Source of the DNA: Enterobacter sp. JUb54
GTDB lineage: Bacteria > Pseudomonadota > Gammaproteobacteria > Enterobacterales > Enterobacteriaceae
Length of the DNA stretch: 64,000 nucleotides
Reading direction: 5' to 3'
NCBI RefSeq assembly: GCF_014298075.1
Contig: NZ_CP060418.1
Span: 868,001-932,000 of the forward strand
Shown here one piece after another: positions 1,687-55,106 of the stretch (positions within the stretch are counted from its first letter, which is position 1; each line of letters begins with the position of its first letter). The position numbers and the translations under genes were made by a program. The notes under the pieces are model-generated. The model did no database searches. It saw only the letters and a list, made by a program, of their open reading frames with translations, and was not told the DNA's origin.

Positions 1687-2445
1687 ATGAAGCTTTTGAT
1701 GACAGTACCCGCAGCGGCATTGCTGGCGGGGGGGCTCTTTGCGTCTATGCACGCACTGGCCGATGATTCCGTTTTTACTGTTATGGATGACCCTTCCACT
1801 GCCAAAAAACCTTTCGAAGGTGCTGTTAACGCCGGTTATCTGGCGCAGTCCGGAAATACGAAAAGTTCTTCAATGACTGCGGATTCAACACTCACCTGGT
1901 ACGGCAGCACCACGGCATGGTCGCTGTGGGGTAATGCCAGCAACACCTCGTCGAACGACCAGCGCTCTTCCGAGAAATATGCGGTGGGTGGCCGTAGCCG
2001 TTACAACCTGACCGACAGCAACTATGTCTTTGGCCAGGCCAGCTGGTTGACCGACCGCTATAACGGTTATCAGCAGCGCGATGTATTAACCGCCGGTTAC
2101 GGTCGCCAGATCCTCAACGGCCCGGTCCACAGTCTGCGTTTTGAATTCGGTCCTGGCGTACGCTATGACGAGTATACCGACGGCGATAACGACACCCAAC
2201 CGCTGGGCTATGCGTCCGGTACCTGGGCCTGGCAGATGACGGATAACACCAAGTTCACTCAGGGTGTATCGGTCTTTGGCGCGCAGGACACGACGCTGAA
2301 CTCGGAAAGTGCATTAAACGTCGCAATCAATGCGCATTTCGCACTGCGGGTTGCCTACAATCTGACCTGGAACTCCGAGCCGCCGGCATCGGCGCCAGAG
2401 CATACCGATCGTCGCACCACGCTGTCGCTAGGTTATAAAATGTAA
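1687..2445 (+). CDS. ydiY: YdiY, DUF481 outer-membrane beta-barrel protein
   Basis: The 252-residue protein matches E. coli YdiY over its whole length. A Sec signal peptide (hydrophobic core up to MHALA, about residues 1-25) precedes a domain of alternating aromatic/polar strands ending in LSLGYKM, the typical end of an outer-membrane beta-barrel. Such DUF481 proteins are thought to be outer-membrane proteins, in some contexts acid-induced; the substrate is unknown. No good Shine-Dalgarno is visible before the ATG (CTCTAAATTAA). A hairpin plus T-run sits in the leader, so expression may depend on conditions. It is divergent from pfkB and lies upstream of a small secreted-protein gene. Confidence 0.9.
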   Translation: MKLLMTVPAAALLAGGLFASMHALADDSVFTVMDDPSTAKKPFEGAVNAGYLAQSGNTKSSSMTADSTLTWYGSTTAWSLWGNASNTSSNDQRSSEKYAVGGRSRYNLTDSNYVFGQASWLTDRYNGYQQRDVLTAGYGRQILNGPVHSLRFEFGPGVRYDEYTDGDNDTQPLGYASGTWAWQMTDNTKFTQGVSVFGAQDTTLNSESALNVAINAHFALRVAYNLTWNSEPPASAPEHTDRRTTLSLGYKM

Positions 2446-2634
2446 TATATTTCAGGCCGGTAAATCCGGCCTGATTGTTTTGAAATTAGCAATAAGTGAC
2501 ATTATTATTTTTGGTCTTCAGTTTTGTTTTTTATAAAAAGAAAATAGCCTCCATATTTCCTTCACAATTGCTTAATTCGACACGCCTTCTGACATGTTTT
2601 ACGTTAATTTGACACAAATAGCTAAATATTGGCT

Positions 2635-2663
2635 CGGACAAAGTTGTGATCTGGATCTATACT
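2635..2663 (+). promoter_or_regulatory. Possible sigma70 promoter for the small secreted gene
   Basis: CGGACA (2635-2640), a 17-bp spacer and TATACT (2658-2663) lie 65 bp before the ATG at 2728. The -10 is close to consensus (5 of 6); the -35 is only a fair match. Confidence 0.4.
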
Positions 2664-2727
2664 GTGGTTTATCGACAGAGACGAGCGCTTTGCCGAAAAA
2701 CCTTAAGTAAATAAGAGAACCACCATC

Positions 2728-2961
2728 ATGAAAAATAGCAAAATCGCAATGGCGGCTGCCGTGCTGTGCACCCTGTCGTTTGGCGCATTCGCCGCCGATC
2801 AGGTCCCACCGTCAGGCGCTACCGAACATACACAAATTGGCATTGCCAAAGCGACGGATGTCGAAGCGGGTTCTAATATTGCTCCCGGTTCACAATCAAC
2901 CGGTCACACTATGGATGATGCTTTTAATGTGCATACTCTTGTTGCCGGTGAGTGGTCCTGA
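2728..2961 (+). CDS. Small secreted protein of unknown function
   Basis: This 77-residue reading frame has a convincing signal peptide: MKNSKIAMAAAVLCTLSFGAFA, with cleavage after AFA. The mature chain is only about 55 residues, rich in Thr, Gly, Ala and His, with no Cys. The ATG is preceded by AAGAGAACCACC, an acceptable ribosome-binding site, and a plausible promoter lies upstream. The N-terminus resembles the leader of YhcN/BhsA (DUF1471) stress proteins, but the mature part does not follow that domain convincingly. I do not recognise it. E. coli has arpB remnants at this position, so it is not part of the shared backbone. It may be a short periplasmic protein or a shortened DUF1471 relative. 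Confidence 0.6.
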   Translation: MKNSKIAMAAAVLCTLSFGAFAADQVPPSGATEHTQIGIAKATDVEAGSNIAPGSQSTGHTMDDAFNVHTLVAGEWS

Positions 2962-3254
2962 TATTTCGCCTGTACATCGCGTATATTAAATTCAGGAAAT
3001 ATAAAGCCGGGTAAAGATGTACCGGTTTATTTCCCGAGTTTTACTTCAAAGTTATTTATGTTTTCTCCTGAATTCCACGCCTGATTATTTTAATGACGGC
3101 AGCGTGGTTTCATGGTTTATCCCCTGACGAATTACCCCATAACTTTTTATCCACCCCCATTGTTTTATCAATCATTGCAACCATTTATCCTGTTCAGACT
3201 TTTAACCCGCAGAAATGATGTGTAGACTAAAGGTCGGTGTTATCAGCAGGCGGC
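2962..3254 (+). other. Non-coding upstream part of the thrS leader region
   Basis: This AT-rich spacer carries short inverted sequences such as AAATATAAAGCCGGG...CCGGTTTATTTCCCG around 2995-3037, which could fold as a terminator-like hairpin for the preceding gene. The thrS promoter is expected near its right end, but I cannot place it exactly. No coding sequence is supported. Confidence 0.4.
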
Positions 3255-3399
3255 TACAGGTGGGAACGGTTCGGTAAACGGGCGTCCTCATATTTCGCAG
3301 AGTGAAGCGGGAGCTGTGCTACAACTTGTTGATAATTATGATTATATTGTTTTGTATGTGCTCTTTCGTGCGGGGCACCACTGCAAATAAGGACATGAA
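3255..3399 (+). promoter_or_regulatory. thrS translational operator (tRNA-Thr mimic leader)
   Basis: ThrS of E. coli represses its own translation by binding a leader that imitates tRNA-Thr anticodon arms. The same layout is readable here. A hairpin (GTGCTC pairing with GGGCAC around 3358-3378) presents a CGT triplet at 3367-3369, 31-33 nt before the ATG, equivalent to the threonine anticodon loop. A further stem-loop region lies upstream (about 3255-3325). The Shine-Dalgarno AAGGAC (3389-3394) follows. That ThrS binding competes with the ribosome is established for E. coli and inferred here. Confidence 0.75.
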
Positions 3400-5328
3400 A
3401 TGCCTGTAATTACGCTTCCTGATGGCAGCCAACGCCATTTTGACCACGCAGTCAGCCCGCTGGATGTTGCTCTGGATATCGGTCCAGGCCTCGCGAAAGC
3501 GACTATCGCCGGACGTGTTAATGGTGAGCTGGTTGATGCCTGCGACCCTATCGAAAACGATGCAACCCTCTCTATCATCACCGCTAAAGATGAAGATGGT
3601 CTGGAGATCATTCGTCACTCCTGCGCGCATCTGTTAGGTCACGCCATTAAGCAACTGTGGCCCAATACCAAAATGGCCATCGGCCCGGTTATCGACAACG
3701 GCTTCTATTATGATGTCGACCTCGACCATACGCTGACCCAGGAAGATATCGACGCGCTCGAAAAACGTATGCACGAGCTCGCCGAAAAGAACTACGACGT
3801 CATCAAGAAGAAAGTCAGCTGGCACGAAGCGCGTGAAACCTTCGTCAAGCGTGGCGAAACCTATAAGGTTTCAATTCTTGATGAAAACATCGCCCATGAT
3901 GACAAGCCTGGCTTGTACCATCACGAAGAATATGTCGATATGTGCCGTGGACCGCACGTACCGAACATGCGTTTCTGCCATCACTTCAAACTGATGAAAA
4001 CCGCAGGCGCGTACTGGCGTGGCGATAGCAACAACAAGATGCTGCAGCGTATTTACGGCACCGCATGGGCCGATAAAAAAGCGCTTAACGCGCATCTGCT
4101 GCGTCTGGAAGAAGCATCTAAGCGTGACCACCGCAAGATCGGTAAGCAGCTCGACCTGTATCATATGCAGGAAGAAGCTCCGGGAATGGTGTTCTGGCAT
4201 AATGACGGCTGGACTATCTTCCGCGAACTGGAAACTTTCGTTCGTTCTAAACTGAAAGAGTACCAGTATCAGGAAGTGAAAGGCCCGTTCATGATGGACC
4301 GCGTGCTGTGGGAAAAAACCGGGCACTGGGACAACTACAAAGATGCGATGTTCACTACCTCTTCCGAGAACCGTGAATACTGCATCAAGCCGATGAACTG
4401 CCCGGGTCACGTCCAGATCTTTAACCAGGGTCTGAAATCGTACCGCGATCTGCCGTTGCGTATGGCAGAGTTCGGTAGCTGCCATCGAAACGAGCCGTCG
4501 GGTGCACTGCATGGCCTGATGCGCGTACGTGGCTTCACACAGGATGATGCACACATCTTCTGTACTGAAGATCAGGTACGTGATGAAGTAAACGCTTGTA
4601 TTCGTATGGTCTACGATATGTACAGCACTTTTGGCTTCGAGAAAATCGTCGTCAAACTCTCAACTCGTCCGGAAAAACGTATCGGTAGTGACGAGACCTG
4701 GGATCGTGCTGAGGCGGATCTGGCAGTCGCGCTGGAAGAAAACAATATCCCGTTTGAATATCAACTGGGTGAAGGCGCGTTCTACGGTCCGAAAATTGAA
4801 TTTACATTGTATGACTGCCTCGATCGTGCATGGCAGTGCGGTACTGTACAGCTGGACTTCTCCCTGCCGCAGCGTTTAAGCGCCTCTTATGTTGGCGAAA
4901 GCAACGAGCGTCAGGTCCCGGTAATGATTCACCGTGCCATTCTTGGTTCACTGGAGCGCTTCATCGGCATCCTGACCGAAGAGTTCGCCGGCTTCTTCCC
5001 AACCTGGCTTGCGCCGGTGCAGGTTGTAGTGATGAATATTACTGATTCTCAGTCTGAATACGTTAACGAATTGACCCGTAAACTACAAAATGCGGGTATT
5101 CGGGTAAAAGCGGACTTGAGAAATGAGAAGATTGGCTTTAAAATCCGCGAGCACACTTTACGTCGTGTCCCGTATATGCTGGTCTGTGGCGACAAAGAAG
5201 TCGAAGCCGGCAAAGTTGCGGTGCGTACCCGTCGTGGTAAAGACCTCGGCAGCATGGACGTAAACGAAGTGATCGAAAAGCTGCAACAAGAGATTCGCAG
5301 CCGCAGTCTTCAACAACTGGAGGAATAA
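3400..5328 (+). CDS. thrS: Threonine--tRNA ligase
   Basis: Class II aminoacyl-tRNA synthetase that charges tRNA-Thr. At 642 residues it has the E. coli length and matches it throughout. In order: the N-terminal TGS domain (1-62), the editing domain carrying [10 protein letters not shown] around residue 73, the catalytic core and the C-terminal anticodon-binding domain. The zinc ligands Cys334 (MNCPGH), His385 (DDAHIF) and His511 (MIHRAI) are all present. Translation is autoregulated through the upstream operator. It is the first gene of thrS-infC-rpmI-rplT; infC starts 3 nt after its stop, with the infC ribosome-binding site inside the thrS 3' end. Confidence 0.98.
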
Positions 5329-6169
<841 letters not shown>

Positions 6170-6198
6170 GTCGTTAACCCTTTTAACTTTTTAATTAG

Positions 6199-6576
<378 letters not shown>

Positions 6577-6584
6577 GCCAGTTG

Positions 6585-6611
6585 AAAGAGGGAGCTTGTC
6601 TCCCTCTTTTT
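6585..6611 (+). terminator. Rho-independent terminator after rplT
   Basis: A 9-bp stem AAAGAGGGA/TCCCTCTTT with a 7-nt loop merges into a T-run (TTTTT). Confidence 0.9.
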
Positions 6612-6658
6612 GTTTATGCCCGTCTTAGAATTATTTCGGGCATAACCCTATCAGAAGA

Positions 6659-6687
6659 TTGACTTTTATTGCTGTAAGCTTTTCAAT
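6659..6687 (+). promoter_or_regulatory. Probable pheM-pheST promoter
   Basis: TTGACT (6659-6664), a 17-bp spacer and TTCAAT (6682-6687) lie 40 bp upstream of the pheM leader peptide, where the E. coli pheST promoter also lies. Confidence 0.55.
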
Positions 6688-6726
6688 ACAGCTCTTACGT
6701 TTAGTTCCTGACAAGGTAATGCAAGC

Positions 6727-6771
6727 ATGAATGCTGCTATTTTCCGCTTCTTTTTTTACTTTAGCACCTGA
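6727..6771 (+). CDS. pheM: pheST leader peptide PheM
   Basis: A 14-codon open frame encodes [14 protein letters not shown], identical to the E. coli PheM leader peptide, with five Phe codons in eight positions. When charged tRNA-Phe is scarce the ribosome stalls on these codons and prevents the downstream terminator from forming, so pheST transcription rises. The attenuator hairpin follows about 50 nt later. Confidence 0.95.
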
Positions 6772-6817
6772 ATCCAGGAGGCTAGCGCGTGAAAGATGAA
6801 ACGGAAAACAGCGCCAG

Positions 6818-6844
6818 AAAGCCTCCCACTGTGGAGGCTTTTTT
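6818..6844 (+). terminator. pheST attenuator
   Basis: AAAGCCTCC/GGAGGCTTT (loop CACTGT, 6827-6832) followed by TTTTTT forms the terminator of the pheM attenuation system. Readthrough gives pheST and ihfA expression. Confidence 0.92.
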
Positions 6845-6931
6845 CGTATATGAACCCGTTCATGCTATTTCAAGCTGCAGGGGCGTTAGTCAGTTTGCGC
6901 CCGCGACGACAGAGACCTTTTTGCCACGTGA

Positions 6932-10402
<3,471 letters not shown>

Positions 10403-15048: not shown

Positions 15049-15198
15049 GCGCTCTTCAGCCGTCGCGCGGTGCCCGGAATCTCTGGCGCCGCGCTTCCTG
15101 AACCCTCCGCGATAAATGCTGTCGACGGAGGTTTTGCTTTTCTCCCCCGGATCCCCACCGTAAAATCAACGGCATCTCTTTCTTGCGTCACGGAAATT

Positions 15199-16185
15199 AT
15201 GCTGACCTTTGCTCAGATTCAACAGCGCCGCAGCCGGCGCTGGCTTATCGCTTTACTGCTGTTGCTCCTCGCCATGGTCGTGGTCAGCCTCTGCGCCGGA
15301 GAACAATGGATCGGCCCGCAAGAGTGGTTCAGCGCCAAAGGGCAGCTGTTTATCTGGCAGATTCGCCTGCCGCGCACCGTCGCGGTGCTGTTGGTGGGCG
15401 GCGCGCTGGCGCTCTCCGGGGCCATTATGCAGGCGCTTTTCGACAATCCGCTGGCGGAGCCGGGGCTGCTCGGGGTCTCTAACGGCGCCGGAGTCGGGCT
15501 GATTGCCGCGGTATTGCTGGGGAAAGGCTATCTGCCGGGTTGGGCGCTGGGGCTATGCGCCATTGCCGGCGCGCTGCTGATCACCTTTATTCTGCTGCGT
15601 TTTGCCCGCCGCCATCTCTCAACCAGCCGTCTGCTGCTGGCGGGCGTGGCGCTGGGGATCATCTGTAGCGCGCTGATGACCTGGGCGGTCTACTTTTCAA
15701 CCTCCTTCGACCTGCGTCAGCTGATGTACTGGATGATGGGCGGGTTTGGCGGCGTGGACTGGCAGCAGCTCTGGCTGATGCTGGCGCTGCTGCCTGTGCT
15801 GGTCTGGGGATGCCTGCAGTCGCAAGCGCTGAATCTTCTGGCGCTGGGTGAAGTCTCGGCCCGTCAGCTGGGTCTGCCGCTGTGGTTATGGCGGCGGCTG
15901 CTGGTGGTCGCGACCGGCTGGCTAGTGGGGGTGAGCGTGGCGCTGGCGGGGGCCATTGGCTTCATTGGCCTGGTTATCCCTCATATTCTGCGGCTCTGTG
16001 GATTAAGCGATCACCGCGTCCTGCTGCCTGCCTGCGTGCTCGGCGGCGCCAGCGCGCTGTTGGGGGCGGATATTATTGCCCGCCTGGCGCTGTCGGCGGC
16101 GGAACTGCCGATCGGGGTGGTCACCGCGACGCTGGGGGCGCCGGTGTTTATCTGGCTGTTACTGAAATCTGTCCATTCGCACTAA
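15199..16185 (+). CDS. btuC: Vitamin B12 ABC transporter permease BtuC
   Basis: The 328-residue inner-membrane permease is the E. coli BtuC orthologue with about ten transmembrane helices ([32 protein letters not shown]-type motif, [13 protein letters not shown]). With BtuD it imports cobalamin delivered by periplasmic BtuF. The start at 15199 matches the family N-terminus; the longer frame from 15070 is not conserved. In E. coli btuC follows ihfA directly and is followed by btuE. Here the DadA/RidA module lies upstream, and an inverted lipoprotein gene separates it from btuE, so btuC and btuED cannot form the usual single transcript. Confidence 0.96.
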
Positions 16186-17263: not shown

Positions 17264-17815
17264 ATGCAACACGATATTCTGAATACGGAAGTCACCACTA
17301 TCGATGGCGAAAAAACGACATTGGCGGGCTACGCGGGTCAGGTACTGCTGATCGTGAACGTAGCATCAAAATGTGGTCTGACGCCGCAGTATGAGCAGCT
17401 GGAAACCTTGCAAAAGGATCTCGAAAACGACGGGTTTACCGTGCTTGGTTTCCCGTGCAACCAGTTCCTGGGCCAGGAGCCGGGGAGCGAAGACGAGATT
17501 AAAACCTTCTGCAGCACTACCTACGGCGTGACTTTCCCGCTGTTCAGCAAAATTGATGTCAACGGCGAACATCGTCACCCGCTGTATCAGAAACTGGTCG
17601 ATGCGGCGCCGCAGGCCGTGGCGCCGGAAGGCAGCGGTTTCTACGAGCGAATGGCCAGCAAAGGCCGCGCGCCGGTCAACAGCAACGACATTTTGTGGAA
17701 TTTCGAAAAATTCCTGATCGGCAAAGATGGCCAGGTTATCCAGCGCTTCTCGCCGGATATGACCCCGGACGATCCGCAGCTGGTTGCCGCCATTAAAGGG
17801 GCGCTCGCGAAATAA
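17264..17815 (+). CDS. btuE: Glutathione/thioredoxin peroxidase BtuE
   Basis: A 183-residue glutathione-peroxidase-fold protein. The peroxidatic Cys37 is in [15 protein letters not shown], the Gln/Trp partners are in [13 protein letters not shown] and [10 protein letters not shown]. Despite its name, BtuE is a non-essential peroxidase rather than a B12 transport component in E. coli, able to use thioredoxin or glutathione. Its stop overlaps the btuD start (TAATG), so the two are translationally coupled. Confidence 0.95.
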
Positions 17816-18564
17816 TGCCGTTTTTGATGCAGCTTGCAGATGTCGAAGAGGCCGGGCGGCTGGCGCCGTTTAGCGCGCAGGTCCGCCCGGGCGAAATGGT
17901 GCATCTGGTGGGGCCAAACGGCGCTGGCAAAAGCACCTTACTGATGCGCATGGCGGGGCTGAGCAGCGGCCCCGGACAGGTTCTCTTCAATGAACGCCCG
18001 CTGACGCAGTGGCCGGCGCAGGAACTCTCCCGGCACCGGGCCTATCTGAGTCAGCATCAGGCGCCGCCTTTCGCCATGCCGGTCTGGCATTATCTGTCGC
18101 TGCATCTGCAAAACGGTGTGCAAAACGAACTGCTCGGCACGGTGGCCGCGCAGCTGGGCCTGAGCGACAAGCTCGGGCGTCAGGTCGGCCAGCTGTCGGG
18201 CGGGGAGTGGCAACGCGTGCGCCTGGCCGCGGTGATCCTGCAGGTTCATCCGCGAGCCAATCCGGCGGGGCAGTTGCTGCTGCTGGATGAACCGATGAAC
18301 AGCCTTGACGTCGCGCAACAGGCGGCTCTCGATCGCGTCCTGGCCGGGCTGTGCGAGGCGGGCGTAGCGGTGGTGATGAGCAGTCACGATCTAAACCATA
18401 CCCTGCGGCACGCGCAGCGGGCGTGGCTGATCTGTCGCGGGCAGGCGATCGCCTGTGGCGATACATGCGCGGTATTAACCGAAGAGAATTTAATCGCCGC
18501 TTACGACATTCCCTTTGAGCGTATTGCGGTTGCTGGTCATTTTATGCTCGTTGCATCACAGTAG
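17815..18564 (+). CDS. btuD: Vitamin B12 ABC transporter ATPase BtuD
   Basis: A 249-residue ABC ATPase with Walker [10 protein letters not shown], signature LSGGEWQRV, Walker [13 protein letters not shown] and a switch His in MSSHDLNHT. It drives BtuC-mediated cobalamin import. The start codon overlaps the btuE stop by 1 nt. The length equals that of E. coli BtuD and conservation is continuous, so assignment over other FecE-like ATPases is safe. Confidence 0.95.
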
Positions 18565-51524: not shown

Positions 51525-52265
51525 ATGACATCTTCCGTCGTGTTGCTGGCTGCGGGGAGCCTGAAAGGGGCATTTATCCCGCTGCTGGCACGTTTCCATC
51601 AGCAAACCGGTATTCAGGTCGAGGCCCGTTTTGGTCCTGCAGGCCTGCTCCGCGAGCGCATTGAATCCGGCGAACGCTGTTCGGTGTTTGCCTCCGCCAA
51701 CAGCCAACACCCTCTGGCGCTGCAGCAGGCCGGGCTGGCGGGGGAGTGTCATCCCTTTGCCCGCAATCAGTTGATGCTGACCGCCCGACGCCAGGCATCG
51801 ACTGACGAGGCCGACTGGCTGGGGCTGCTCAGCAACCCGCAGCTGAGGCTGGCAACCTCGACGCCAGGCTGCGACCCTTCCGGCGACTATACCTGGCAAC
51901 TGTTTACCCGCATTGAGGCCGACTTCCCCGGCGTCGGGCGCGCGCTGATGGCCCGCGCTCAGCAGTTGGTAGGGGGCAGAACCTCGCTCAACGTGCCGCC
52001 GAGGGAGACCGCCGGTGGCTGGCTGATCGGTGAAGATTTAGCCGACCTGTTTATCGGCTATGCCCATTACGCCCGCCAGATGACGGCCAGAGACGACCTG
52101 CGCACGGTGGCGATCCCCGCCCCCTGGAATGTACAGGCGGAATACCTGCTGACGATGACCCAGCCGAGCGCCGGGGCGCAGCAGTTATGCCGCTTTATCC
52201 TCGGCGCCGACGGCCAGCAGTTCCTGCGCAGCGCCGGCTTTTTACCCGCTAACGGCGAATCGTAA
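51525..52265 (+). CDS. ModA-like substrate-binding protein lacking a signal peptide
   Basis: This 246-residue product has the type-II binding fold of molybdate/tungstate-binding ModA relatives: LLAAGSLKGAFIPLLARFHQQTG at the N-terminus, RFGPAGLLRERIESGERCSVFASAN near 35-60, and a conserved C-terminal SAGFLPANGES. It starts with MTSSVVLLAAGSLKGAF, i.e. the mature domain itself. No signal sequence exists, and no upstream in-frame start codon is found before the preceding stop, so it should remain cytoplasmic. It overlaps the convergent ABC ATPase gene by 17 nt. Whether it follows the quinate-type operon or belongs with the ModE-box transporter cannot be settled from sequence. Confidence 0.75.
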   Translation: MTSSVVLLAAGSLKGAFIPLLARFHQQTGIQVEARFGPAGLLRERIESGERCSVFASANSQHPLALQQAGLAGECHPFARNQLMLTARRQASTDEADWLGLLSNPQLRLATSTPGCDPSGDYTWQLFTRIEADFPGVGRALMARAQQLVGGRTSLNVPPRETAGGWLIGEDLADLFIGYAHYARQMTARDDLRTVAIPAPWNVQAEYLLTMTQPSAGAQQLCRFILGADGQQFLRSAGFLPANGES

Positions 52266-52998
52266 ACTGCGGTGCCAGCAGCGGGCCCCCGGAATCGGGG
52301 CGCTCGATTTTATGCACCGGTAACCCGTAGGCGCGCTGCAGGTGGCGCTCGCTGAGCACCGCCTCAGAGCGCCCGGCTAGCCACTCGCCGTCCGGCAACA
52401 GCAGCAAAGTATGGCTGGCGACCTGCAGGGCATGGGTTGGATCGTGGGTGGTGAACAGCACCGTGCGCGACTGGCGATAGGCCAGGTCGCTGATCAGCTG
52501 CAGCACCACCTGTTGATTGGAGAGGTCCAGCGCCGAGCAGGGCTCATCCAGCAGGATATTCTGGCTGTCGCCCACCAGCGCCCGGGCAATGAGCGCCATC
52601 TGCTGCTGGCCGCCGGAGAGCGAACGAAAGGCGCTGGTTGCCAGAGAGGCAATCCCCAACTGGCTCAGCGCCTCGTGGACTCGCCTACGATCGTCGTCGC
52701 CGGGCTGGGCGAACAGATTGACCTGGCGGGCGCGACCCATCAGCACCACATCGGCGACCTGCCAGCTAAAGGCCGGACGGAACGACTGCGGGACGATCGC
52801 CACGCCGCCCTGTTGCTGGAAGCTGCCCGCCAGCGGCGGCAGTACCCCGGTCAGGGTGTCGAGCAGCGTGCTTTTGCCGCGTCCGTTGGCGCCGAGTATC
52901 GCCCAGATATCACCGTGCTGGCACTGCAGGCTGAGCGGGGTAAACAATGGCTTACGATGACCAAACTGCAGGGCCGACAGGCTAAGAGAGGGCGTCAT
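52249..52998 (-). CDS. FecE/BtuD-type ABC transporter ATPase (predicted molybdate/tungstate)
   Basis: A 249-residue ABC ATPase with Walker A GANGRGKST, signature LSGGQQQM and Walker B ILLDEPCSALD. It is the last gene of a three-gene importer and begins at the stop of the permease gene (TGATG overlap). The family covers iron-chelate, B12 and MolC molybdate ATPases. The ModE-type palindrome before the operon favours the molybdate/tungstate assignment. Confidence 0.85.
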   Translation of the reverse strand: MTPSLSLSALQFGHRKPLFTPLSLQCQHGDIWAILGANGRGKSTLLDTLTGVLPPLAGSFQQQGGVAIVPQSFRPAFSWQVADVVLMGRARQVNLFAQPGDDDRRRVHEALSQLGIASLATSAFRSLSGGQQQMALIARALVGDSQNILLDEPCSALDLSNQQVVLQLISDLAYRQSRTVLFTTHDPTHALQVASHTLLLLPDGEWLAGRSEAVLSERHLQRAYGLPVHKIERPDSGGPLLAPQFTIRR

Positions 52999-54002
52999 CA
53001 GGCGGCACTCCGGCGGCGGGACTGCACCAGCAGCCAGGTAAACAGCGGGGCGCCGAGCAGGGCGGTAATGATGCCCACCGGGACCTCCGCCTGGGTCAGC
53101 GAGCGCGCCAGGTCATCCACCACGATCATAAAGCCGCCCCCGAGACAGAAAGCGGTCGGCAGCAGTCGACGGTGGTCGGCACCTACCAGCAGTCGTGCCA
53201 GATGGGGGATCACCAGCCCGACCCACGCAATACTGCCGCTCACCGCCACCTGCGCGGCAACCAGCACGGCGCAGCACACCAGCACGCCACGGCGCAGCGC
53301 GGTCACCGGCACGCCGAGACCGCGGGCGTCTTTCTCATCCAGCGCCAGCAGATTAATCCGCCAGCGCAGCGCCAGCAGGATCGCCGCGGTAATCAGGATC
53401 GGCGGTGCCATCATCGCCACTTTGTGCCAGTTGGCGGTGGCGAAGCTGCCCAGCAGCCAGAAGACGATATTGGGCAGCGTCTCTTCGCTGTCGGCCAGAT
53501 ACTGCATCAGGCTGACGAGGGCGGCGAAAAAGCCGCTGAGGACGATCCCGGAGAGGATCAACACCAGCGTATTTTCCCGTCCTTGTAGCGCGGCAATCAG
53601 ATACACCAGCATCAGCGCCAGCAGGCCAAAACCAAAGGTGGAGGCCATCATCAGCAGAGTGTCCAGCCCCAGTAGAATCGCCAGGGTGCCGCCAAACGCC
53701 GAGCCGGAGGTGACGCCGATAATATGCGGGTCGACCAGCGGGTTCTGGAACACGCCCTGCAGCGTCGCCCCGCACAGCCCCAATGCGCCACCGGCCAGCA
53801 GCGCCATCACCACCCGGGGCAGGCGTACCGACCAGACGATCTGCCCGGCAATTCCGTCCCCGGGCGGCGCCTGCGTCAGCTGGGTTATCACCGCGGCGGG
53901 GCTCAGGTGATACTGGCCGACGCAGAGCGAAGCGAGAGCAATCACCAGGGTCGTCAGCGCCAGCCCGCTCTGTAGCAGGGCCGAATGACGATTACTGCGC
54001 AT
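52998..54002 (-). CDS. FecCD-type ABC transporter permease (predicted molybdate/tungstate)
   Basis: A 334-residue permease with about ten transmembrane helices and the FecCD signatures IVWSVRLPRVVMALLAGGALGLCGATLQGVFQNPLVDPHIIGVTSG and GSIAWVGLVIPHLARLLVGADHR. The start overlaps the binding-protein gene by 11 nt, so the three genes are one unit. MolB of Haemophilus influenzae has the same architecture and carries molybdate and tungstate; sequence alone cannot exclude an iron-chelate substrate. Confidence 0.87.
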   Translation of the reverse strand: MRSNRHSALLQSGLALTTLVIALASLCVGQYHLSPAAVITQLTQAPPGDGIAGQIVWSVRLPRVVMALLAGGALGLCGATLQGVFQNPLVDPHIIGVTSGSAFGGTLAILLGLDTLLMMASTFGFGLLALMLVYLIAALQGRENTLVLILSGIVLSGFFAALVSLMQYLADSEETLPNIVFWLLGSFATANWHKVAMMAPPILITAAILLALRWRINLLALDEKDARGLGVPVTALRRGVLVCCAVLVAAQVAVSGSIAWVGLVIPHLARLLVGADHRRLLPTAFCLGGGFMIVVDDLARSLTQAEVPVGIITALLGAPLFTWLLVQSRRRSAA

Positions 54003-55053
54003 CGGGCGTCCATTTCACGCGATAAAACCGCTGGTAGTAATCTGCGGCGCGGGCGTCAACATCGACTCCCTGATAGCGGGAAGGATAGAGTTTTTTCGCC
54101 ATCCACAGTTCACCGAGCGCCAGCGCTTCCGGCATCGGATAGCCCCAGGCTTTGGCATACTCCGGCATCAGCCACACGCGGTGGTTTTTCACCGCATCAA
54201 TGCCTTGCCACTGCGGATCGTTGACGATCTGCGTCACCACCTGCGGGTAACGGTCCTGCACAAAGATCACCTGCGGATTCCACTGCAATACCTGTTCCAG
54301 CGAGACCTGGCGCGCCCCTTTGACCGTTGCCGCCGCGACGTTTAAGGCCCCGGCGTGTTTCATCATCAGCCCGGTATACTTGCCCGAACCATAGGTATTG
54401 AGGTCCGGGTTGGCCATATACACGCGGACCCGCTGGTCGTCAGGAATATCGGCCACCGGAGCGTTGGCCGCTTTGCGGGCCGCGAAGGTGTAGTCAATCA
54501 GCGCCTGCGCCTGGCTCTGGCGCTCGACCACCTCGCCAATCAGGCGGATGCCCTGCGTCAGCCCTTGGTTATAGGCCTGCTCTTCATCGGCCATCGACGG
54601 GTTCATCTTGTTTTTTTCGCCCGCGGCATCCTGGCGCAATGACACCGCCACCACCGGGATCCCGGCGTTCTGAATCTGCTGAATCATCGCCGGCGGGGCA
54701 TAGTTGGCGACAAACACCACCTGCGGGTGCAGCGCCATCAGGCTTTCGATATTGACCTGGGTTAAGTCCCCGGGCATCGGCAGCTGTTCGATACCCGGCA
54801 TAAAGCGGGCGAATGCCGGGCCGAGCTGTTTTTTCCAGCTGTTCATCACCCCGACGATATCGTCGGCGGCGTTGAGCTGCACCAGCAGGTTCAGGGTCTG
54901 GTGCTGGAGCACCACCACGCGGGTCACATGGTCCGGAATGGTCACTTCACGGCCGAGTTGGTCGGTGACGGTACGTTCAGCAAAGGCATGGCTGGCAAAC
55001 AGGCAGGCGCCGATCAGCGTCAGCCCTGGTAACAGACGGGAGAGAGTTGGCAT
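53992..55053 (-). CDS. FecB/BtuF-type periplasmic binding protein (predicted molybdate/tungstate)
   Basis: A 353-residue binding protein with a signal peptide (MPTLSRLLPGLTLIGACLFASHAFA, cleavage before ERTV) and a class III helical-backbone fold: VTDQLGREVTIPDHVTRVVVLQHQTLNLLVQL near 28-60 and ESLMALHPQVVFVANYAPPAMIQQ near 103. It is the first gene of the transporter operon, 26 bp from a ModE-type box. MolA of H. influenzae has this fold and binds molybdate and tungstate. No outer-membrane TonB receptor is adjacent, which would be usual for a siderophore system. Confidence 0.85.
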   Translation of the reverse strand: MPTLSRLLPGLTLIGACLFASHAFAERTVTDQLGREVTIPDHVTRVVVLQHQTLNLLVQLNAADDIVGVMNSWKKQLGPAFARFMPGIEQLPMPGDLTQVNIESLMALHPQVVFVANYAPPAMIQQIQNAGIPVVAVSLRQDAAGEKNKMNPSMADEEQAYNQGLTQGIRLIGEVVERQSQAQALIDYTFAARKAANAPVADIPDDQRVRVYMANPDLNTYGSGKYTGLMMKHAGALNVAAATVKGARQVSLEQVLQWNPQVIFVQDRYPQVVTQIVNDPQWQGIDAVKNHRVWLMPEYAKAWGYPMPEALALGELWMAKKLYPSRYQGVDVDARAADYYQRFYRVKWTPDAQ

Positions 55054-55078
55054 GAGAAGGCTCGGTTGCGTAAGAAGA

Positions 55079-55106
55079 ATCGCTGTGTATTAGAATATAT
55101 AGCGAT
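55079..55106. promoter_or_regulatory. ModE-type operator of the ABC transporter
   Basis: ATCGCTGTGTA, six bases (TTAGAA) and TATATAGCGAT form an inverted repeat with 9 of 11 matching arm positions. This is the layout of known ModE sites (CGnTATAT...AYATAnCG). It overlaps the likely promoter of the binding-protein gene, where molybdate-loaded ModE would block transcription. Confidence 0.8.

Follow-up and report, generated by a model that had tools for sequence, protein, structure and literature searches.

A MolABC-type importer behind a ModE-type operator in Enterobacter sp. JUb54, with molybdate or tungstate as its predicted cargo

What does an importer carry when its genes have the architecture of an iron-chelate or vitamin B12 system and its promoter holds a ModE-type box? 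This question is raised by the mol operon, which encodes a periplasmic binding protein, a permease and an ATP-binding cassette (ABC) ATPase, in a stretch of 64,000 nucleotides from Enterobacter sp. JUb54 (NCBI RefSeq assembly GCF_014298075.1, contig NZ_CP060418.1, positions 868,001 to 932,000 of the forward strand), hereafter called the window. An initial annotation had described this operon as a second molybdate/tungstate uptake system, possibly a high-affinity backup to ModABC. We compared its proteins with known families and structures, and examined its promoter in the window, in the whole genome and in related loci.

The Pfam families and coordinates of the genes confirmed a Fec-type binding protein/permease/ATPase operon, with the FecCD-type permease and ATPase genes in one operon with molA (Table 1). 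The best structure matches of the binding protein were 3psa and 3psh, the crystallised Haemophilus influenzae MolA (HI1472), at E = 2e-139, the next structure following at 5e-25; its identity to H. influenzae MolA was 63%, and 17 MolA sequences shared long invariant blocks. By homology, the binding protein is an orthologue of MolA and the operon an orthologue of MolABC, so the H. influenzae architecture proposed in the initial annotation was borne out. Because of the MolA homology together with the ModE-type box described below, the cargo is likely molybdate/tungstate instead of iron, as had been predicted. The description as a second system beside ModABC also agrees with the genome, in which modA, modC and modE (C1:2430168, over the family cut-off) are all present.

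The box in front of the operon was found exactly as claimed, as a 28-base-pair (bp) element, ATCGCTGTGTA-N6-TATATAGCGAT, which had no match in 100 shuffles; only its spacing had been misjudged, since 25 bp rather than 26 bp separate it from the molA ATG at 55053. Compared with ATCG.TATATA-N6-TATATA.CGAT, which we take to be the ModE operator consensus and used for scoring, it matched at 18 of 20 defined positions. By a bit matrix made from six other ModE-type sites of the same genome, the mol box scored 26.0 bits, compared with 29.1 bits for the modA site, which was left out of the matrix, and it was the sole strong ModE-type site in the window. Alignment of 81 mol promoters revealed a conserved TTGC, a spacing of about 17 bp and then a TTTAAT-like, -10-like hexamer inside the box. 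Bound ModE would therefore cover the -10 region, a layout that suggests a repressor.

We then asked how well the box is kept among relatives, taking the best 80 of 249 relatives as the sample, the region from -300 to +30 of molA as the search span and a score of at least 14 as the threshold. The best score upstream of molA was 14-19 in all 80 loci, while only 27 of 4453 other windows of the same loci (0.6%) scored at least 14, part of these 27 being boxes that look real, and 23 windows scored 0. In 11 further loci, a ModE-type site of 15-18 preceded molA in 9. A ModE family match was present in each of 16 genomes tested, exceeding the cut-off in 15. A chance occurrence of the molA box was rejected on the shuffles, the conservation in 80/80 loci and the matrix score.

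The mol operon is adjoined by a gene for a ModA-fold protein, for which we coin the label MolD. This gene is convergent with molC, overlaps its 3' end by 17 bp, and adjoins mol in 75/80 loci. In structure comparison by VIA-align 2, the predicted fold of MolD was that of ModA. By alignment, with no signal-peptide program run, a signal peptide was absent, the N-terminus of the protein coinciding with the first mature-domain strand; PAG stands in place of the ModA serine cluster, and a TSTPxxDPxGDY motif is present. The NCBIfam models near MolD carry the name of periplasmic molybdate-binding proteins. A ModE-type box before MolD of the window was considered and rejected, the best score there being 13/20; in four relatives (L021, L023, L024 and L027), MolD has an upstream ModE-type site of 17-18.

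The importer belongs to a known type and its ModE-type operator is clear; we consider it very probable that MolABC is a type II importer of molybdenum (probably also tungsten) oxyanions under ModE repression, with MolD as a partner. The operon would be expressed under molybdenum shortage; as cytoplasmic molybdate rises, molybdenum-loaded ModE would bind the box over the molA -10 region and shut the operon. MolA would pass the ligand, in the present species presumably the oxyanion, to MolBC, where ATP would drive its import, and in the cytoplasm MolD probably receives the imported oxyanion or acts as a buffer for it.

Table 1. Coordinates of the mol genes, their operator and the related operon of locus L013 (window positions unless stated otherwise)
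Feature	Coordinates	Strand	Remarks
molA, periplasmic binding protein	53992..55053	-	Pfam Peripla_BP_2; homology to H. influenzae MolA (HI1472)
molB, permease	52998..54002	-	Pfam FecCD family
molC, ABC ATPase	52249..52998	-	Pfam ABC_tran
ModE-type operator	55079..55106	-	overlaps the -10-like hexamer of the mol promoter
MolD (label coined here)	51525..52265	+	predicted ModA-fold protein without signal peptide
Six-gene operon of L013	L013 946-7434 = C1:730945-737433		behind a ModE-type box

To place the mol box in the regulon, the genome was scanned for ModE-type sites with up to 3 mismatches. Ten distinct places were found, nine of which scored 17-20 of 20. Four of these clear sites precede genes named by family as modA, moaA, dmsA-type and narK/narU-type, and the remaining five precede a second ModABC-like set, a DUF2623 gene, molA and two operons with TonB receptors (L013 and L014). 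By the matrix, L013 scored 32.7 and L014 23.8 bits, and the second mod set, left out of the matrix, 26.2 bits. The tenth place, at window 55965 near an IclR-type regulator (15/20), was the runner-up of the window at 8.7 bits and was rejected as chance; the reversed pattern, used as a control, likewise gave 1 match per strand. The genome's best site (20/20) stands before the DUF2623 protein of 95 residues (L015 11714-12102), and the DUF2623 genes of two other genomes (L146 and L154) also lie behind a ModE-type site. The second ModABC-like set (L015 3109-5505) includes a permease above the TIGR01581 cut-off.

The two TonB-receptor operons may bear on the question of cargo. The initial annotation had pointed to the lack of a TonB receptor; this holds for the surroundings of mol, where none is adjacent in the window, but not for the genome as a whole, since two ModE-boxed operons elsewhere hold one. 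In L014 (C1:1396000-1408000; genes 4705-7979), the box is followed by a TonB receptor and then a Peripla_BP_2 protein, with no adjoining permease; this pair lies after a katG-type catalase/peroxidase gene. In L013 (C1:730000-742000), the box precedes genes for a binding protein, FecCD, an ATPase, a methyltransferase, ModD (398.7 bits, cut-off 178.85) and a TonB receptor. A further TonB plug match lies just past this operon, at C1:729495. The genome has 16 FecCD matches (15 above cut-off) and 19 TonB plug matches in total. Assuming 2000-3300 transcription units, 20-32 of them with such genes (assumed figures), the chance of finding 3 of 10 sites before such genes would be ~3e-5 to 5e-4; when the mol site, the starting point of the search, was left out, the chance for 2 out of the 8 remaining clear sites was 0.001-0.007.

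The boxes of these operons also recur in other genomes. The L014-type binding protein occurs in 9 of 119 family genomes, the present one included, and in 7 of the 8 non-self loci the set lies behind a ModE-type site of 16-19 (L120-L124 have site and receptor, L126 and L127 the site without a receptor, and L125 neither). The L013-type binding protein occurs in 5 of 295 order genomes, again with the present one included, and is preceded by a site of 16-19 in all 4 non-self loci; L130 and L131 have a receptor resembling that of L013, L132 shows none, and a ModD match was obtained in L130 only. In the fourth, the Pasteurellaceae-like L133, the L013-type importer is accompanied by a receptor of the FepA family (828 bits against a cut-off of 493) that is directly preceded by a box of 18, and an additional Fec-type operon faces the importer and receptor and is preceded by a site of 15. 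In four Citrobacter loci (L050, L056, L058 and L059; 4/80), the L014-type pair, behind a site of 18-19 of its own, immediately precedes molABC; in Rahnella laticis (L159), one operon behind a site of 15 holds first a permease and an ATPase and then the L014-type receptor and binding protein. Distant TonB receptors before molA were also seen in L028, L039 and L045, where they lie opposite the ABC genes of another importer and have no ModE-type box.

Several observations weigh against MolABC as an oxyanion importer repressed by ModE. Among the NCBIfam models shown, no cut-off was reached by molA, molB or molC (for molC, among the best 25 of 185 models), and a scan with the sigma-70 consensus found no promoter, the TTGC/TTTAAT pair coming from the alignment alone. 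Of the two further loci lacking a site of 15-18 before molA, L103 reached a best score of 12 and L102, in which molA is broken, had no box in the tested stretch and a score-15 site farther up. In 13 of the 80 loci (L085-L097), molA and MolD occur without adjoining molBC, and a close MolB was not found in 6 searched genomes of this type, so that MolA in such genomes must work with a different permease or with none. Moreover, a low-affinity importer that is made mainly at molybdenum shortage is odd. Low affinity was measured for H. influenzae MolBC-A (PMC4031551), in which a HI1469-HI1473 deletion strain showed normal molybdate uptake at low concentration and molB was repressed 10-fold by molybdate, an effect taken to suggest an 'unknown factor'. 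Excerpts of PMC3928620 list HI1469 as modA beside molABC and quote a dissociation constant (Kd) of ~100 uM, and the passages of PMC8195247 consulted report modABC and contain nothing on mol; PMC7759655, PMC9171197 and PMC11734730 contributed no decisive evidence.

These data also bear on the other explanations of the locus. That the operon imports an iron-siderophore or cobalamin, as a general FecBCD-like annotation would suggest, is very improbable: the nearest named permease and ATPase families are indeed BtuC-, FecC-, zinc- and heme-type, all of those shown falling below their cut-offs, but the MolA orthology and the ModE-type box in 80/80 loci speak against it, and the window has a separate vitamin B12 importer, btuC and btuD (15070-16185 and 17815-18564), both above cut-offs and with no ModE-type site of at least 14 near them in the window. 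Nor was a Fur box found before molA, where the best match to a Fur consensus of 19 positions was 10/19, the commonest value in a null of 212 random windows; the Fur-like match at L014 was 12/19, a value reached by 50 of the 212. The absence of a Fur box claimed in the initial annotation therefore stands at null level, and with the MolA orthology and the ModE-type box it leads us to reject the iron or B12 importer and to agree that an automatic iron-siderophore annotation would be wrong. A high-affinity backup for bare molybdate or tungstate, the role first proposed, is unlikely. The box does suggest expression at molybdenum shortage, and MolA, being just 63% identical to that of H. influenzae, could differ in affinity; nevertheless, the low affinity and Kd of the orthologue, and the deletion without effect on uptake at low molybdate, speak against the proposal (PMC4031551, PMC3928620).

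A further explanation, which we put forward tentatively, is that MolABC and its ModE-boxed partners naturally carry molybdenum (or tungsten) in chelated form, as a molybdate complex with a catechol-type carrier. The chelate might conceivably pass from ModE-controlled TonB receptors to Fec-type binding proteins and on to MolBC and the second Fec-type importer, and bare molybdate may, with the same reservation, be merely a weak surrogate ligand. The boxes before both receptor operons of the present genome and their retention in relatives are in favour of a chelate, as are the L014-type pair directly before molABC in Citrobacter or, in Rahnella, together with permease and ATPase genes, the box directly before a siderophore-type receptor in L133, and the Fur-like sites not above null. 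So is the finding that MolBC-A has a low affinity for bare molybdate, yet is repressed by it (PMC4031551). On the other hand, among the 8 other genomes with an L014-type protein, MolA occurs in 4 (in one of them in pieces with stops) and MolB, at E<=1e-80, in just 1; strict coupling of the receptor pair to MolBC is thus not upheld, and the pair is independent of MolBC. In addition, the two receptor queries matched nothing near 73 of the 80 mol loci, the distant receptors of L028, L039 and L045 lack the box, and the L013-type relatives vary in receptor and ModD as described above. No carrier or carrier genes were identified, and none were looked for. It is possible, though doubtful, that some Enterobacterales and Pasteurellaceae-like bacteria have a ModE-controlled, molybdophore-type route from receptors to cytoplasmic MolD; perhaps, and with no greater confidence, this route would include TonB receptors (one FepA-like), Fec-type binding proteins, MolBC and the ModD/methyltransferase-linked Fec-type importer. 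A TonB receptor for molybdate has already been suggested for Azotobacter (PMC4465626, from excerpts), and in our literature search we found no ModE-controlled TonB receptor and no link between a molybdophore, TonB and molybdate, a weak negative as subscription literature was mostly outside the search.

Returning to the probable oxyanion importer under ModE control, this assignment corrects the likely iron-siderophore annotation of the operon, offers ModE as the 'unknown factor' behind molybdate repression of mol (PMC4031551) and points out MolD as a conserved cytoplasmic ModA-fold partner of mol. If the link to TonB receptors is true, chelated molybdenum would enter enteric bacteria by a route dedicated to it, and why a low-affinity importer should be expressed at shortage would become directly testable; if the molybdophore-type route is true, the 'low affinity' of MolA would mean that the wrong ligand was tested.

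Among the systems already known, that of H. influenzae (MolBC-A, HI1470-HI1472, together with HI1469) is like the present one in gene set, family and binding protein. In the genome of L100 (MolA 91% identical), molA, molB, molC and MolD all run in one direction, whereas MolD here is convergent with molC and outside the operon. Also in comparison with H. influenzae, a ModE-type operator was identified here, and the genome further holds ModE-boxed TonB-receptor operons. ModABC, which shares the kind of operator with mol and has its own site in this genome before modA, belongs to the type I importers; its permease is unrelated and its binding protein is of the ModA type. In comparison with the oxyanion-binding proteins ModA and WtpA, MolD differs by the lack of a signal peptide and by PAG in place of the ModA serine cluster. 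Finally, the ABC transporter of Azotobacter chroococcum, with a TonB receptor beside modE and modABC, resembles the present system by gene context; there the connection is a remark on gene context (PMC4465626, in the excerpts cited), whereas here the ModE-type boxes are kept over several genera.

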